From an uncultured Colwellia sp. (GTDB lineage Bacteria; Pseudomonadota; Gammaproteobacteria; Enterobacterales; Alteromonadaceae), in assembly GCA_913020705.1 (NCBI GenBank), contig CAJWBY010000173.1, positions 1 through 9,009 on the forward strand: 9,009 nt of DNA, read 5' to 3'. The notes under the pieces were generated by a model, which saw only the letters and a program-made list of their open reading frames with translations, was not told the DNA's origin and did no database searches. A program made the position numbers and the translations under genes. Of this stretch, positions 574 through 9,009 are shown in pieces. Position 1 is the stretch's first letter. Every line of letters starts with the position of its first letter.

Positions 574-773
574 ATTGTTTGTTTTTAATTTTTTTTACAA
601 TGTTCTTTGTTAAGGGGTGATATCTTAATGATCACTTTCTCGTGTTTTGGTAAAGATTGAACAGATAAAAGGATACTAGTAACGTACTAAAATTATTCGT
701 AAAAATGTGTGCTTGAATGTACTGAAATTCACGATTGAATTTGTATTAACTCGAGATGCGCATTAATACACTG
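574..773. other. Non-coding left flank of the cassette array
   Basis: About 200 AT-rich bases without an open frame that I can support. In a complete integron this would be the place for attI, the cassette promoter and a divergent intI gene; none of the three is recognisable. Hexamers such as TTGAAC (657-662) and TAAAAT (688-693) exist but are not spaced as a sigma-70 promoter, and CTGAAA-N16-TATTAA (722-749) is only a weak match. The last base, G773, is the crossover position at which cassette 1 is joined. Confidence 0.5.
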
Positions 774-794
774 TTATGTGCACAAGGAGCTCTC

Positions 795-1205
795 TTGAAC
801 ATTAGGCATTTCTCTTTATACATTACCATACTAATGTGTGTTGCTTGTACAACATCAGGGCAACTTTACTATGTTGATACGGAAGGTAGCGAAAAACTTG
901 GCTGTGAATATGAGTTCGTTGGTGCACCAAGTGTTGATAAATATGCTATTGAGTATGCTCTTAGTTTATGCGCTAAAAGTATTGTTAAAAAAGGTGGTGT
1001 AATCAAAGAAGAATATCTGTTAAAAATAGATACTTCTATTCCATTACCAGCTTGTGGCAAAATTTGGACTCATGATTTAGCCAAGCAACAGTTCAACTCT
1101 GAGCAAATATCTAAAAAAGAATATGGTTATATTGTAGCTAACATTGATATGGGGTTTGCAGCGATCAATGAATGTGCACATAACAAGCAAATCAACAAGG
1201 ACTAA
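795..1205 (+). CDS. Cassette 1: small predicted lipoprotein of unknown function
   Basis: 136 residues from a TTG start. I chose TTG 795 over the upstream in-frame ATG at 756 because AAGGAG lies at 784-789, five bases before it. ATG 756 also lies outside the cassette, whereas TTG 795 is 21 bases inside it, like the starts of its neighbours. From TTG the protein begins with a short lipoprotein signal peptide (MNIRHFSLYITILMCVAC), with Cys18 as the likely lipidated residue; the -3 position is Cys rather than Leu, so the lipobox is not ideal. The mature part has four more cysteines (37, 59, 87, 127), which could form two disulfides in the periplasm. The last eight codons lie inside attC 1, because the TAAC of R'' is read out of frame here. 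I do not recognise the family. Confidence 0.75.
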   Translation: MNIRHFSLYITILMCVACTTSGQLYYVDTEGSEKLGCEYEFVGAPSVDKYAIEYALSLCAKSIVKKGGVIKEEYLLKIDTSIPLPACGKIWTHDLAKQQFNSEQISKKEYGYIVANIDMGFAAINECAHNKQINKD

Positions 1206-1273
1206 AAACAGCGGGCTGTTCGCTCCGCTCCATTTTAGCCCACTATTTTTAGCCTGTTATTTGGGCGTTATAC
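1178..1273 (+). other. attC site of cassette 1
   Basis: R'' is ACATAAC (1178-1184) and R' is GTTATAC (1267-1273), cut after G1267. L'' at 1188-1200 pairs perfectly with L' CCTGTTATTTG (1253-1263) once two bases are left unpaired: C1193 and one A of 1197-1198. These are extrahelical bases, the hallmark that directs integrase to the bottom strand. The inner stem pairs AGCGGGCT with AGCCCACT with one mismatch. The site overlaps the end of the cassette 1 gene by 28 bases. Confidence 0.92.
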
Positions 1274-1287
1274 GTTTAGGGAGTTTT

Positions 1288-1863
1288 ATGAGTACACTGG
1301 TAGTTGTTAAAAAAAACGGATATGCAACTATTGCATGTGATTCACTATCAACAGATGGCACTATAAAAGTTTGCCCTGAAAACAAAACTCATAATCATAA
1401 GTTTTTTAAACATCAAAATTCATATGTCGGAATTATTGGTTGGGGTAATTTCAATAACATCCTAGAGAATATCTTTTCCGATGAATCTAATGATTTAGAA
1501 TTTACAGATAAAAATTCAATTTTTAAATCTCTTCTTAAACTTCATGAAATATTAAAAGATGAGTATTTCATAGAAACTAGTGAGGATGATGATCAACCTG
1601 TTGAATCATCGCAGATTAACGGTTTGATTTTGTCACCTAATGGTATCTTCGAGTTTGATAATTATCGTGGTGTAGATGAATATAATAAATATTGGGCTGT
1701 AGGATCAGGTAGACGATATGCCTTGGGAGCTTTGCATAATGCATATGACTCTGAACAAACTTCAGAAGAAATAGCATTAAGTGCTATCAAAGCAAGTTGT
1801 AGTTTCGATGACGGTTCAGGCTTACCTGTATTGTTTGAAACACTTGAGCTAAAAAACGTATAA
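1288..1863 (+). CDS. Cassette 2: proteasome/HslV-like Ntn-hydrolase
   Basis: 191 residues. ATG 1288 is preceded by AGGGAG (1278-1283); the frame is open further left only because it happens to run through attC 1. Removal of Met would expose Ser2. The N-terminus (STLVVVKKNGYATIACDSL) matches the start of mature HslV and related peptidases, where the first residue (Thr in HslV) is the nucleophile, and Asp18 falls at the conserved Asp. Later come NGLILSPNG and AVGSGRRYALGA (137-148), matching the HslV AIGSG segment, then a helix EEIALSAIKASCSFDD and a C-terminal strand LFETLEL. The length fits a single proteasome-fold subunit. No unfoldase partner (HslU-like) is present. I infer a self-processing or oligomeric peptidase-like protein; a role in general protein degradation is not shown, and Ser in place of Thr is unusual for HslV. 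The stop TAA is formed by the R'' of attC 2. Confidence 0.78.
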   Translation: MSTLVVVKKNGYATIACDSLSTDGTIKVCPENKTHNHKFFKHQNSYVGIIGWGNFNNILENIFSDESNDLEFTDKNSIFKSLLKLHEILKDEYFIETSEDDDQPVESSQINGLILSPNGIFEFDNYRGVDEYNKYWAVGSGRRYALGALHNAYDSEQTSEEIALSAIKASCSFDDGSGLPVLFETLELKNV

Positions 1864-1954
1864 CAAGTTACTCAAACGGACGCTAAACAGTTGGCTAGCT
1901 TCGTTCCTCGCAATTTTAGCCAACTATTTTTCGCCGCTTAGTAAGGCGTTATAT
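1858..1954 (+). other. attC site of cassette 2
   Basis: R'' is GTATAAC (1858-1864) and R' is GTTATAT (1948-1954), cut after G1948. The L'' run TTACTCAAACGG (1868-1879) pairs with CCGCTTAGTAA (1934-1944), leaving C1873 extrahelical and one A-C mismatch. The inner stem AGTTGGCTA/TAGCCAACT is perfect, and the apical loop contains TTCGTTCCTCG. The 48 bases at 1877-1924 are identical to 2438-2485 in attC 3. The stop codon of the cassette 2 gene is in R''. Confidence 0.95.
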
Positions 1955-1967
1955 GCACAGGGAGTTT

Positions 1968-2423
1968 ATGCGTAACTTTTCAATTTTCATTATTTTGCTT
2001 TTATGTGGTTGTTCAACAGTGGTTTCCAATGAAAACCTTGCTGTAAACCTCATAGACAAATGCTTCTCAGTAGAGAAACCTATTCAAGTTTATGCATCAA
2101 ATAATTTACATGTTGCGGTAACAAAGCAAAATACATCTCGTCTTCATAGGTTCGAACAAAATTATAAACGAGTCAAAACATTAAATGCTGGAGATATTAT
2201 TAAAATTAGTACTGTAATGGATCATTCTTATGGCTCTGCTGGACGTTGCTGGATGGTCTTTGCTAAAAATATGCATTTGACTGGAATAGAGTTTCAACTT
2301 CCGTCATGCTGGATGGATCATAATTCAATTTGGTTTACACCTAACTCACCTGCAAAGTTGAATGAAAGCGATAAAATAGAGTTAGTTACAGACTACATTA
2401 AACCTAGTAAAGTGTGCATATAA
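1968..2423 (+). CDS. Cassette 3: small predicted outer-membrane lipoprotein of unknown function
   Basis: 151 residues from ATG 1968, preceded by AGGGAG (1959-1964). The earlier in-frame ATG 1953 is part of the attC 2 R' sequence and has no ribosome site. The N-terminus MRNFSIFIILLLCGCSTV is a textbook lipoprotein signal with lipobox L-C-G-C and lipidated Cys15; Ser at +2 favours the outer membrane. Four further cysteines (32, 94, 114, 150) could pair as disulfides. The C-terminal half has LNAGDIIKISTV and two CW motifs (RCWMVF at 93-98, SCWMD at 113-117), suggesting a small beta-rich domain. I do not recognise a family with known function. The TAA stop lies in the R'' of attC 3. Confidence 0.82.
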   Translation: MRNFSIFIILLLCGCSTVVSNENLAVNLIDKCFSVEKPIQVYASNNLHVAVTKQNTSRLHRFEQNYKRVKTLNAGDIIKISTVMDHSYGSAGRCWMVFAKNMHLTGIEFQLPSCWMDHNSIWFTPNSPAKLNESDKIELVTDYIKPSKVCI

Positions 2424-2515
2424 CAAGCAATTCAAGACGGACGCTAAACAGTTGGCTAGCTTCGTTCCTCGCAATTTTAGCCAACAATTTCGCGCCGCTT
2501 AATAGGGCGTTAGTT
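2418..2515 (+). other. attC site of cassette 3
   Basis: R'' is ATATAAC (2418-2424) and R' is GTTAGTT (2509-2515), cut after G2509. L'' TTCAAGACGG (2431-2440) pairs with CCGCTTAA (2495-2502), leaving C2433 and A2437 extrahelical. The inner stem GTTGGCTA/TAGCCAAC is perfect. The core is nearly the same as in attC 2. Confidence 0.95.
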
Positions 2516-2532
2516 TTCAAAAGGAGTTTGGT

Positions 2533-2862
2533 ATTAGTCTCAATATTTATATCGATAAAATCGAAAATTTCTCTGAAGTGGAAAGGTGCGATTTTTTTCG
2601 AGTTTTAGCTCACTCATTGACCGTATCTATTAGAGTTTATCTTTGCGATAACGAATTAGATGATGAAGAAAAATTGAATAGAGTAAAGTGGCTAAACGAG
2701 ATATTACATAGAGTAATAACTAAAGTGTACGTTAGGCCTTATGACAAAAATAATGTCGAAGGTTTTTTCGAAATGATGGCAGATTATATCGAAAAGAATC
2801 CTAATATATATGAGCAGCTGGAACATTGTTTCAATAAATCATTCCACTGTGTGCGTAGTTGA
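2533..2862 (+). CDS. Cassette 4: small helical protein of unknown function, probable ATT start
   Basis: 109 residues if translation begins at ATT 2533, which is six bases after AAGGAG (2521-2526). No ATG is available in this frame near the ribosome site. The next candidate, GTG 2578, has no Shine-Dalgarno and would remove the plausible beginning MSLNIYIDKIENFSE. The other three cassettes all place their start 19-23 bases from the cassette edge, which fits ATT 2533 (23 bases) and not GTG 2578. ATT is a rare but real bacterial start codon (known from infC); a recent mutation from ATG that weakens or silences the gene is the alternative. The product is mostly helical and charged (ELDDEEKLNRVKWLNEILHR at 41-60; MMADYIEKNPNIYEQLEHCF at 81-100), without signal peptide or membrane segment, so cytoplasmic. 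Family not recognised. TGA lies just before the R'' of attC 4. Confidence 0.68.
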   Translation: MSLNIYIDKIENFSEVERCDFFRVLAHSLTVSIRVYLCDNELDDEEKLNRVKWLNEILHRVITKVYVRPYDKNNVEGFFEMMADYIEKNPNIYEQLEHCFNKSFHCVRS

Positions 2863-2863
2863 A

Positions 2864-2964
2864 AACTAACAAGCCATTCAAGCAGGACAAATAACAGCTG
2901 GCTATTTGCTCCTTCGTCGCTTATTTTAGCCAACTATTATTTGCCTCTTAATGGGGCGTGAATG
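2864..2964 (+). other. attC site of cassette 4, with degenerate outer R' (right end of array)
   Basis: R'' is AACTAAC (2864-2870). L'' CCATTCAAGCAGG (2874-2886) pairs perfectly with CCTCTTAATGG (2944-2954), leaving C2879 and C2883 extrahelical. The inner arms CAAATAA/TTATTTG and AGCTGGCTA/TAGCCAACT also pair, the latter with one mismatch. The right core reads GTGAATG (2958-2964) and not GTTRRRY. Because the bases right of G2958 belong to the DNA into which the array was inserted, this reflects the insertion site and not decay of the cassette: the cassette's own R' is GTTAGTTTTC at 2509-2518 and exactly matches GAAAACTAAC at 2861-2870. Confidence 0.9.
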
Positions 2965-3690
2965 TATTTTATTTATTTAATAGAATCAAGCAATTAAGTT
3001 GGTGGTTTTTATTTTGTGACAAAGTTGTGACTTGAAAGTGACGGGTTTACTTTTTTATTAATTATTATGTGATATAGCCCCTCATAAAGAAATACTAGTT
3101 TAGATAAATAGGTAACGTTGTGCCCATTAGGCATTACGCTTATTCGAAAATGTAGGCCTACTTTCCGATAATACAGCTAACATATATGTTTACTATATTT
3201 GCGAGAAGAGCATAGGGCGTCTTAGTTCATTTACTGTATATGCAGGCACGATAGTATGATCCAGTTATCGGTCGTTTCTACTCAAATGATCTTATCCGTG
3301 ATATTCATAGCTTCAACCGTTATGCATAGCCGTGCGGCAGTCATAGGTTCTCCCCTCGTTATAAGTGCACAAGTTTTAGTCATTTTCGATCAAGAGCTGA
3401 CCTAAATAAGTCCTCAAAATTAGGTGGGTTTATGTCCTCTTAGGATACGAAACCAGACATTAGCCTTGGTTTATCTAGCGACATTTGAACCGATACAAAT
3501 CATCCTTGCTTTAGATAAGAGAATTGTTCTAAGTTTTATCAGAAATCTATAAAGTCAAAAATTATAATTTGTTTAGAAAATACCAAAAAGGACATTAAAT
3601 TAATATGATTTAGGGTATCAATTTTTGTTTCTAGGGCGCTAAGGGGCACATTGCGAGATAGGGGGGTTGCTTAACATTAGTAAGCATTTT
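2965..3690. other. Non-coding stretch right of the cassette array
   Basis: About 730 AT-rich bases. The longest reasonable plus-strand frame starts at ATG 3256 and has only 49 codons without a ribosome site; I see no recognisable protein fragment on either strand and no further attC. It holds the 11-base-spaced GTGAC repeats (3016-3042). It also holds a short hairpin TGCTTA/TAAGCA (3668-3686) followed by TTTT, which might be a weak plus-strand terminator. Confidence 0.5.
3016..3042. repeat. Three GTGAC direct repeats with 11-base period
   Basis: GTGAC occurs at 3016, 3027 and 3038, exactly one helical turn apart. Read on the minus strand these are GTCAC units preceded by T, A or C and followed by AT-rich bases, resembling the 11-base direct repeats bound by PhoB-type response regulators (TGTCA-type half sites). 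No gene starts close by on either strand, so a regulatory role is only a suggestion. Confidence 0.4.
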
Positions 3691-3691
3691 A

Positions 3692-3725
3692 TTAAAAAGC
3701 CCCTAAATAAAAATACAGGGGCTTT
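3692..3725 (-). terminator. Rho-independent terminator of the GH5 gene
   Basis: AAAGCCCCT (3696-3704) and AGGGGCTTT (3717-3725) form a nine-pair stem with a 12-base loop. Read on the minus strand the stem is followed by a T run (complement of 3694-3698). It lies about 65 bases after the stop codon of the minus-strand glycoside hydrolase gene. On the plus strand the following TTTGTC is a poor T-tract, so termination is mainly for the minus strand. Confidence 0.85.
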
Positions 3726-3790
3726 GTCTCACATCATTCCATCTATATTGAGAACACACATCGGTTCAAATATAGAGAAAGTGATTATTA

Positions 3791-7913: not shown

Positions 7914-8011
7914 TTATAAACACCCAAATAATCTAAACATACAAGTTACTTGTCCCCACAAAAATCCCTCTTGATTAATATAAATACACCAGTACTTTTC
8001 ACCCTATTTAA

Positions 8012-8035
8012 ACGTTCTTCTAAAGGGAAGAACGT
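8012..8035. promoter_or_regulatory. Candidate operator upstream of the AraC-type regulator gene
   Basis: ACGTTCTT-N8-AAGAACGT, a perfect inverted repeat. With flanking bases it grows to ten-base arms AACGTTCTTC/GAAGAACGTT around TAAAGG (8011-8036). It lies 99 bases upstream of the regulator start and about 30 bases upstream of a TATATT -10 candidate, a position suited to an activator or autoregulator. It is the same site as at 6513-6536. Confidence 0.72.
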
Positions 8036-9009
8036 TCTTTCTTATATTTAAATTTTGATTCGAACGACATTAAAAGTGGGCTTGGGCAATGTGTCTTAGG
8101 TATTTTTCTTTACATACAAAAAACAACTTTTTTGATTGTACACAAATACATGCACGGATACAAAATTGTAGATATACCCTTTATTATACAAAGTGTAGGA
8201 TTTTAGTTGGAATTACAAGCGTGTCGTGGTCAAGTTAAATTGGCCACGGTTTTATAGTTTAGCCAAAATTTTGTCCTTGAGTTGATTTAATACTGTTTGT
8301 CTGTAGTTGTCTCTAAATGACCAATTTGGTCTCAATGCTAATGTTCGGTAAAAGCGTAGAGTTGCCGTTTTGAAATTGAATGTCAACGTCCGTAATGAGC
8401 TTAGGCTGTGTGAAAACTCATAAACAACTGTGCTGTTCGCGCACTATCTTTGTTCTGGTGTGAAAAATAGCTACTTTTACAAGCATTTTAGGTTATTTAC
8501 GATGACAAACGCAATGGGGGAATTCTGCAGAGTGGTTACGTTTATACGGGGATTTTGGTCCTTAGTATCAACTTTGAAGTGCGACATAAAATGGCCTCTC
8601 TATGCTTAGTAGACATTAAGCTCCCCTGTTATGAAGGTCAACTTTTCAATCATATAGCTGACATAAACTTCTAACTCGCTTGGGAGGCTAAACCGCCATA
8701 GAATTAAGACTCTAAATTTGTTTGAAACTTAAATAATTCCAATGTCCGCTTTTGGGATTTAAGATATAACGCCATGCAAAAGTAATAGTTATATTTTTAG
8801 TTGTGAATGGATGTAAGTTTTAAATGAAAAAGGAAGCTTAAGAATCTCTGCTCTGCTGTTATTAACTCAAAAGCTAAAGTCAGCAATTGGCTAACTCAAT
8901 AAGTCACAGGCTCAATGTTAACAAAGATACGATATAGTCCTTTAAGTCTGAATAAACCTATAATTAGGATGTTCAGATCATGTGCCTATTTCATACGAAT
9001 ATTGATACG
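8036..9009. other. Non-coding right end of the window
   Basis: Nearly 1 kb without a supportable gene. Frames are at most about 35 codons: for example ATG 8502 on the plus strand, and on the minus strand a 36-codon frame starting near 8590 with GAGAGG before it; neither resembles a known protein. Apart from the hairpin at 8225, the only thing seen is GGCTGTGTGAAAACTC (8404-8419), which reminds me of insertion-sequence ends, but no matching second end or transposase fragment is visible. Confidence 0.45.
8225..8255 (+). terminator. Terminator-like hairpin with no gene before it
   Basis: CGTGGTCAA (8225-8233) pairs with TTGGCCACG (8240-8248) with one G-U pair and a six-base loop, followed by GTTTTATAG. 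It has the form of a plus-strand intrinsic terminator with a short T-tract. No plus-strand gene ends nearby in the window, so it may close a short untranslated RNA or be a relic. Confidence 0.4.

Follow-up and report, generated by a model that had tools for sequence, protein, structure and literature searches.

Four gene cassettes beside a methyltransferase-like gene

A 9,009-bp stretch of DNA from an uncultured Colwellia sp. (contig CAJWBY010000173.1, in full length here called the window) carries an array of four gene cassettes on its forward strand at positions 774 to 2958. Each cassette ends in an attC site, and a leader resembling an attI site lies directly upstream. The left flank is a methyltransferase-like gene for which every Pfam match was below the cut-off. 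On the right follow a gene for a glycoside hydrolase of family GH5 (PF00150, E 1.8e-25) with a CBM6 domain and, on the other strand, an AraC-type regulator. Bases 1 to 1274 of the window were 97.3% identical to L001, a contig of the metagenome-assembled genome (MAG) of another uncultured Colwellia (G001, the sister strain), and by its sequence the DNA is assigned to the Colwellia/Cognaticolwellia group. The original prediction, made from the bare sequence, had described an integron array without an integrase between ordinary chromosomal genes, and the two flanks agree with this, the methyltransferase being identified by sub-cut-off Pfam matches and GH5 by PF00150.

The window was scanned to an E value of 0.01 with a covariance model (R1) built from 36 attC sites of relatives and from none of the window. 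Four sites were called on the minus strand, the bottom strand being the one that folds: attC1 at 1174 to 1276 (95.3 bits), attC2 at 1854 to 1957 (86.5 bits), attC3 at 2414 to 2518 (92.7 bits) and attC4 at 2860 to 2967 (95.6 bits). The E values were roughly 1e-19 to 5e-22, and no fifth match occurred anywhere in the window up to the same limit. Four attC sites had been claimed before, and failure of a covariance model to call them had been named as the result that would speak against the array; with the independent model R1 all four were recovered at 86.5 to 95.6 bits. The hairpin is backed by covariation: in the 36 sites of the relatives 19 of its 30 pairs had changed on both sides, a count reached by 0 of 500 shuffles, the hairpin structure being taken from the same 36-site alignment. 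Folded as single-stranded DNA, attC1 to attC4 gave z scores of -3.16, -3.19, -2.10 and -2.73. For attC3, 8 of 200 shuffled versions folded equally well, for attC4 1 of 200, and the minimum-energy folds of these two sites lacked the outer R''/R' arm. Over 76 bases attC2 and attC3 were 93% identical. The crossover of attC4 (2958 to 2960), in its R' core, reads GTG for GTT; the last called attC sites of two arrays in relatives (G005:C1 and G003:C156) were irregular at this point too.

The cassette boundaries were mapped between G773 and T774, after G1267, G1948 and G2509, each followed by T, and at G2958. They give cassette 1 at 774 to 1267 (494 bp), cassette 2 at 1268 to 1948 (681 bp), cassette 3 at 1949 to 2509 (561 bp) and cassette 4 at 2510 to 2958 (449 bp), all on the plus strand and together within the limits given in the original prediction. 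A free cassette circle contributes both the R' and the R'' halves of its site, and the first bases of a cassette hence pair with its own R''. In cassettes 1 to 4 the first 12, 11, 12 and 12 bases, respectively, matched the reverse complement of the cassette's own R'' end, while mismatched pairs reached only 4 to 6 bases. Because pairing with the own end far exceeds that of mismatched pairs, the four are genuine cassettes by a second test independent of the attC calls. The four same-strand genes noted earlier were likewise found, though the one in cassette 4 lacks ATG, GTG and TTG at its conserved N-terminus.

The attI-like leader

Immediately upstream of the array, at 579 to 773 on the plus strand, lies a feature that was absent from the earlier description, a leader of about 195 bp ending exactly at the junction with cassette 1. 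It is a putative orphan attI site with its upstream region. At 764 to 776 (plus strand) the junction reads TAATACACTG followed by TTA, which resembles the cores found upstream of intI in relatives. In relatives TAATA[A/C]GCTG followed by TTA, located with a loose pattern, stood upstream of intI at 10 of 23 loci with an integrase. The window core differs by one base from TAATACGCTG before TTA (1 of the 23 loci) and by two bases from TAATAAGCTG before TTA (9 of the 23). With up to one mismatch the core pattern matched the window once, yet 33 of 200 shuffles gave at least one match, and the pattern had been drafted with the window site known.

Bases 575 to 774 were compared with 295 genomes of the family, and the best two candidates per genome were scored. 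The leader was matched in at least seven genomes, at least four of which held copies reaching the junction and at least three inner fragments only. At least seven junction-reaching copies were found, two in the sister strain G001 (one of them at the window's own locus), two each in G003 and G015 and one in G066. In all seven, homology extended to the last base of the leader and was followed by TTA and then by divergence; likeness past the junction was present only between the window and the sister and between G066:C31 and G003:C14. An attC site was located downstream in five of the six copies at other loci (G001:C3, G003:C14, G003:C156, G015:C72 and G066:C31), and at the sixth, G015:C121, 581 bp of contig remained past the junction. 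The array that follows the leader of G001:C3 is flanked by HlyD-like and LexA-like genes, the one that follows that of G015:C72 by PpiC-like and UbiB-like genes (all named by eye). In a complete integron intI sits upstream of the array and points away from it. In this position G015:C121 carries a divergent relic of an IntI N-terminus (residues 16 to 78, 43% identity) that begins 343 bp from the junction. The leader is best read, by analogy, as an attI region that has outlived its integrase. In G014 (L047/L063) an inner leader fragment (46 to 131 of 200) occurs upstream of a ribD-type gene (by eye) without the attI end.

Leader segments were also compared pairwise with 100 shuffles per pair. 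Between -195 and -98 the leaders of the window, the sister locus and G001:C3 were similar to the others, with z scores of 6.7 to 16.7 for most pairs and 3.3 to 5.9 against G015:C72. Between -300 and -196 the homology of these three to the others was gone (z -1.1 to 1.4), in contrast to the four remaining copies, which were still alike here (z 10 to 24). A weak exception was the pair G001:C3 and G003:C156 with a z score of 3.9 between -400 and -300. The same truncation at about 195 bp at two loci of one genome favours copying of a leader that had no integrase, or else convergence at a T-rich stretch. The leader and its cassettes might then constitute an integrase-less unit that is copied to new chromosomal loci and refilled with different cassettes by integrases acting in trans, a tentative reading that we hold to be less likely than not. 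In the sister both leader loci break off at one point; a pair of leaders is also present in each of G003 and G015, and no complete intI was found next to them, although one of the G003 copies can be assessed only by way of its counterpart in G066. If this applied, arrays of this type would spread together with their docking site and not only by scattered insertion or one-by-one decay.

An array without a local integrase

A tblastn search with four IntI proteins detected no IntI in either the window or L001, the 11.9-kb locus of the sister that extends 10 kb further upstream than the window. The divergent intI of a complete integron is missing from the window, and the earlier statement that no intI is present stood. 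With at least two attC sites (here four) and no nearby intI, the array is a cluster of attC sites lacking an integrase (CALIN) as defined for IntegronFinder 2.0 (PMC9024848), the class originally proposed. Within the genus group, 15 of the 17 genomes had an IntI that scored above the curated cut-off. The attC matches in five relative genomes numbered 63, 106, 110, 6 and 45, rough counts from at most 150 scored candidates per genome that include weak matches on the opposite strand, and the matches listed for four of these genomes were spread over several contigs. Cognaticolwellia mytili (G002; L031, L033 and L034) has one intact and two broken intI genes, each next to an attC array and with closely similar attI regions; it shows arrays at the stage of integrase loss.

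The window and the sister strain shared the left side of the locus, with identities of 503/510 for the methyltransferase, 246/263 for spacer and leader and 482/493 for cassette 1. From the boundary in attC1 on, the identity dropped to 30/101. The second cassette of the sister is a different one with a SnoaL_2-type gene, and contig L001 breaks off within the attC of that cassette. G001, itself a MAG, yielded no copy of cassette 2 or 4, and none of cassette 3 was found at the loci compared. Another Colwellia MAG (L005) carries the same methyltransferase gene and, from about 2.1 kb beyond it, 14 strong attC sites and one weak one, and no IntI was found in the 77 kb of contig examined. At L002, L003 and L004 the methyltransferase was present and no attC was called in about 20 kb. 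Genes fixed in synteny had been named as a finding that would contradict mobility; the differing second cassette of the sister, the array of L005 and the loci without attC show that the array is not fixed. As the left side without intI is shared by both strains, a change of cassettes after the loss of intI, carried out by an integrase in trans, is the simplest reading.

We therefore regard the array, with a probability of roughly 70%, as a small chromosomal integron without its integrase, i.e. a CALIN that still starts with an attI-like docking site and whose cassettes are probably moved in trans. An ancestral integron would have lost intI through an alteration whose edge lies about 195 bp from the junction, and the leader would have remained as a working attI, as the analogy with intact integrons suggests. 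IntI from another locus would then probably move the cassettes in trans as single-stranded hairpins, and cassette turnover would have continued in this way after the loss of intI.

Insertion of the cassettes by a trans-acting integrase at an ordinary attG-type chromosomal site, with plain intergenic DNA as the left flank, appears improbable. Such insertion has been reported as a route of cassettes into genomes (Loot et al. 2024, cited in PMC11389934 and PMC12444791), and integrases are common in the group, but the left flank is not unique, being a conserved leader of other arrays that ends at the same base. Nor was an empty site with joined flanks found in the 17 genus genomes, where seven matches stopped at the junction or short of it; a close copy of the methyltransferase was present in 3 of these 17 genomes (E 1e-40).

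The difference between the strains could also have arisen by cassette loss in the window line or by homologous recombination between similar attC sites, which weighs against cassette movement in trans. In its full form, in which look-alike attC sites took part in homologous recombination or deletion without IntI and the array is a dead relic, this explanation is unlikely. It would fit the 93% identity of attC2 and attC3, the irregular core of the last attC and the missing local intI. An ancestor with both second cassettes, of which each line lost one, is feasible, the sister contig ending in its second attC. However, all four cassettes have kept perfect complementarity to their own ends, and neither cassettes 2 and 4 in the sister, which is a MAG, nor cassette 3 at the compared loci turned up. 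An assembly artefact, in which a complete integron was split or misjoined, is very improbable. Repeats of attC break assemblies, as is warned in PMC9024848, and L001 does end in an attC; the window, however, crosses the array into both flanks, its left part being matched by a second MAG and its right part not.

Several further results count against an attI leader served in trans. A consensus scan of 575 to 774 detected no sigma-70-like promoter (Pc), other promoter types not being covered by the scan. None of the leader copies found adjoins an intact intI, and the attI function is for this reason assigned by analogy. In G066:C31 and G003:C156 an attC site also occurred upstream of the leader (at 2.0 and 4.3 kb, respectively), so that there the leader is not simply the start of an array. 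The copies are not all independent, since G003:C14 and G066:C31 appear to be a single locus shared by two genomes; G003:C14 offers just 223 bp of upstream sequence, and the leader counts derive from two scored candidates per genome. The sister strain yielded no IntI at E 1e-12 and only three weak tyrosine-recombinase matches, a negative of little weight in a MAG; the integrase acting in trans is accordingly putative in this species. The last attC site may be inactive owing to its GTG core. Some of these points would suit a leader that is another repeated element, such as an intergenic repeat or a piece of a cassette without a gene, abutting the cassettes by chance: attC sites also lie upstream of two copies, three genomes have nothing but inner fragments, and intact intI is missing beside every copy. 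We consider this improbable, as all seven full copies end at the junction of G and TTA, and as the IntI relic at one copy has the expected place and orientation.

CALINs as such are already known and have been described as degraded integrons that are possibly mobilised in trans (PMC11389934, PMC9024848). The distinctive parts of the present array are the truncated attI-like leader shared by several loci and the proteasome homologue in cassette 2. As in other CALINs, the four attC sites point the same way, the flanks are chromosomal and no intI is within reach. The array differs from CALINs as described in keeping a conserved attI-like leader, and the account of CALIN calling in these sources does not mention attI as considered. 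With the integrons of Cognaticolwellia mytili and relatives it shares the attC family and a similar attI core and cassette junction. Those integrons, in contrast, have intI, and their attI upstream sequences gave no blastn match to the window leader. The Xanthomonas CALINs outside the ilvD locus (PMC12444791) are likewise secondary arrays without intI at a few chromosomal loci; a shared attI leader is not mentioned in the description of them consulted here. CALINs may originate by loss of the integrase or translocation, or by insertion at non-classical sites. A CALIN with an attI-like leader, sister copies elsewhere and one integrase relic is a case in which these routes can be separated.

Cassette genes and the right flank

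The gene of cassette 2 (1288 to 1860, plus strand) encodes a proteasome homologue of the BPH type with a predicted Ser-1 nucleophile. Its match to PF00227 was just over the cut-off (24.5 versus 22.4 bits). The family profile A3 matched the BPH structures 5ovu (E 1.6e-78, positions 2 to 189) and 5ovs (E 2.4e-63) in the PDB. In alignment A3 residues S2, D18, K38 and G51 correspond to Thr-1, Asp-17, Lys-37 and Gly-50 of BPH, as named in PMC5777263. The full-length relation to a solved BPH and the N-terminal Ser nucleophile together with Asp, Lys and the oxyanion Gly, all predicted from the sequence, place the protein among the BPH. The product is most likely a self-compartmentalising BPH peptidase with equivalents of Ser-1, Asp-17 and Lys-37.

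Ser-1 has been reported for BPH outside the Betaproteobacteria (PMC5777263), where horizontal transfer is discussed for the sparse spread of BPH and Ser-1 was found to argue against it; a later study (PMC8665760, Bioinformatics 2021) places BPH within a wider set of proteasome homologues. The catalytic residues and the full-length match are like those of the BPH of PMC5777263, for which operon contexts are described, whereas that of the window rides on a gene cassette. A relative (P0002, 84% identity) has VIRLG immediately before its start, the same as at the attC end in the window, and its gene therefore also looks cassette-borne. The BPH copy of G163 was flanked by attC sites. BPH relatives were present in 45 of 369 genomes of the class, and no attC of this type lay within about 1.5 kb of BPH at the 29 class loci and three family-genome loci examined. 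Carriage on a cassette would be a concrete means by which BPH could have attained the sparse distribution reported outside the Betaproteobacteria. The BPH genes nearest to cassette 2 in the family genomes, those of G070 (L092/L097) and G163 (L095/L096), are split into two frames.

Cassettes 1, 3 and 4 gave no Pfam or NCBIfam match above the cut-off, and no defence or toxin-antitoxin family reached the threshold for any cassette gene in Pfam, NCBIfam or PADLOC. The expectation that the cassettes may include novel functions thus remains for these three and falls away for the recognisable BPH of cassette 2. Cassettes 1 (795 to 1202, plus strand, TTG start) and 3 (1968 to 2420, plus strand) most likely encode envelope lipoproteins, a prediction from the lipobox motif. 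The protein of cassette 1 had a 97% identical copy in the sister locus and no other among the loci compared. For that of cassette 3 two relatives were found, P0123 (99%) and P0124 of Pseudoalteromonas citrea (46%). Its sub-threshold matches were a putative type VI secretion system immunity lipoprotein of NCBIfam (15.1 bits, cut-off 43; a lead only) and Gad1 of Pfam (15.5 bits, cut-off 27).

The product of cassette 4 (2533 to 2859, plus strand) is most likely a small helical protein of 109 amino acids, for which the AlphaFold2 (AF2) model predicts five helices (pLDDT 90.9). Seven relatives were found, and the sole one among 395 family genomes (32% identity) also sits in an attC array. A match to AbiEi in PADLOC (E 0.031) was below the threshold. 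From the TAG at 2503 to the conserved N-terminus there is no ATG, GTG or TTG in frame; AAGGAG is followed by six bases and the ATT at 2533, the probable start. The relatives P0116 and P0117 share GISL in the start region, and the relative in G157 has ATC there (by eye), so that a conserved AUU or AUC start is possible. Against this, the proteins P0121 and P0122 have their initial M four residues further upstream, and an in-frame TTG precedes the site in the relative in G157.

On the right flank, no plausible gene was recognised at 2968 to 3790 (0.8 kb) or 7914 to 9009 (1.1 kb), on either side of the GH5/AraC pair. At the DNA level no part of the GH5 gene was matched in five relatives, the matches being confined to neighbouring stretches that are short or repeated. 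The segments 3429 to 3628, 8671 to 8894 and 8932 to 9003 are dispersed repeats in G001 and G003 with 69 to 94% identity, and R1 called no attC near the repeat copies L038 to L042. On contig G001:C13 the first two of these repeats lie about 40 bp apart and in reversed order.

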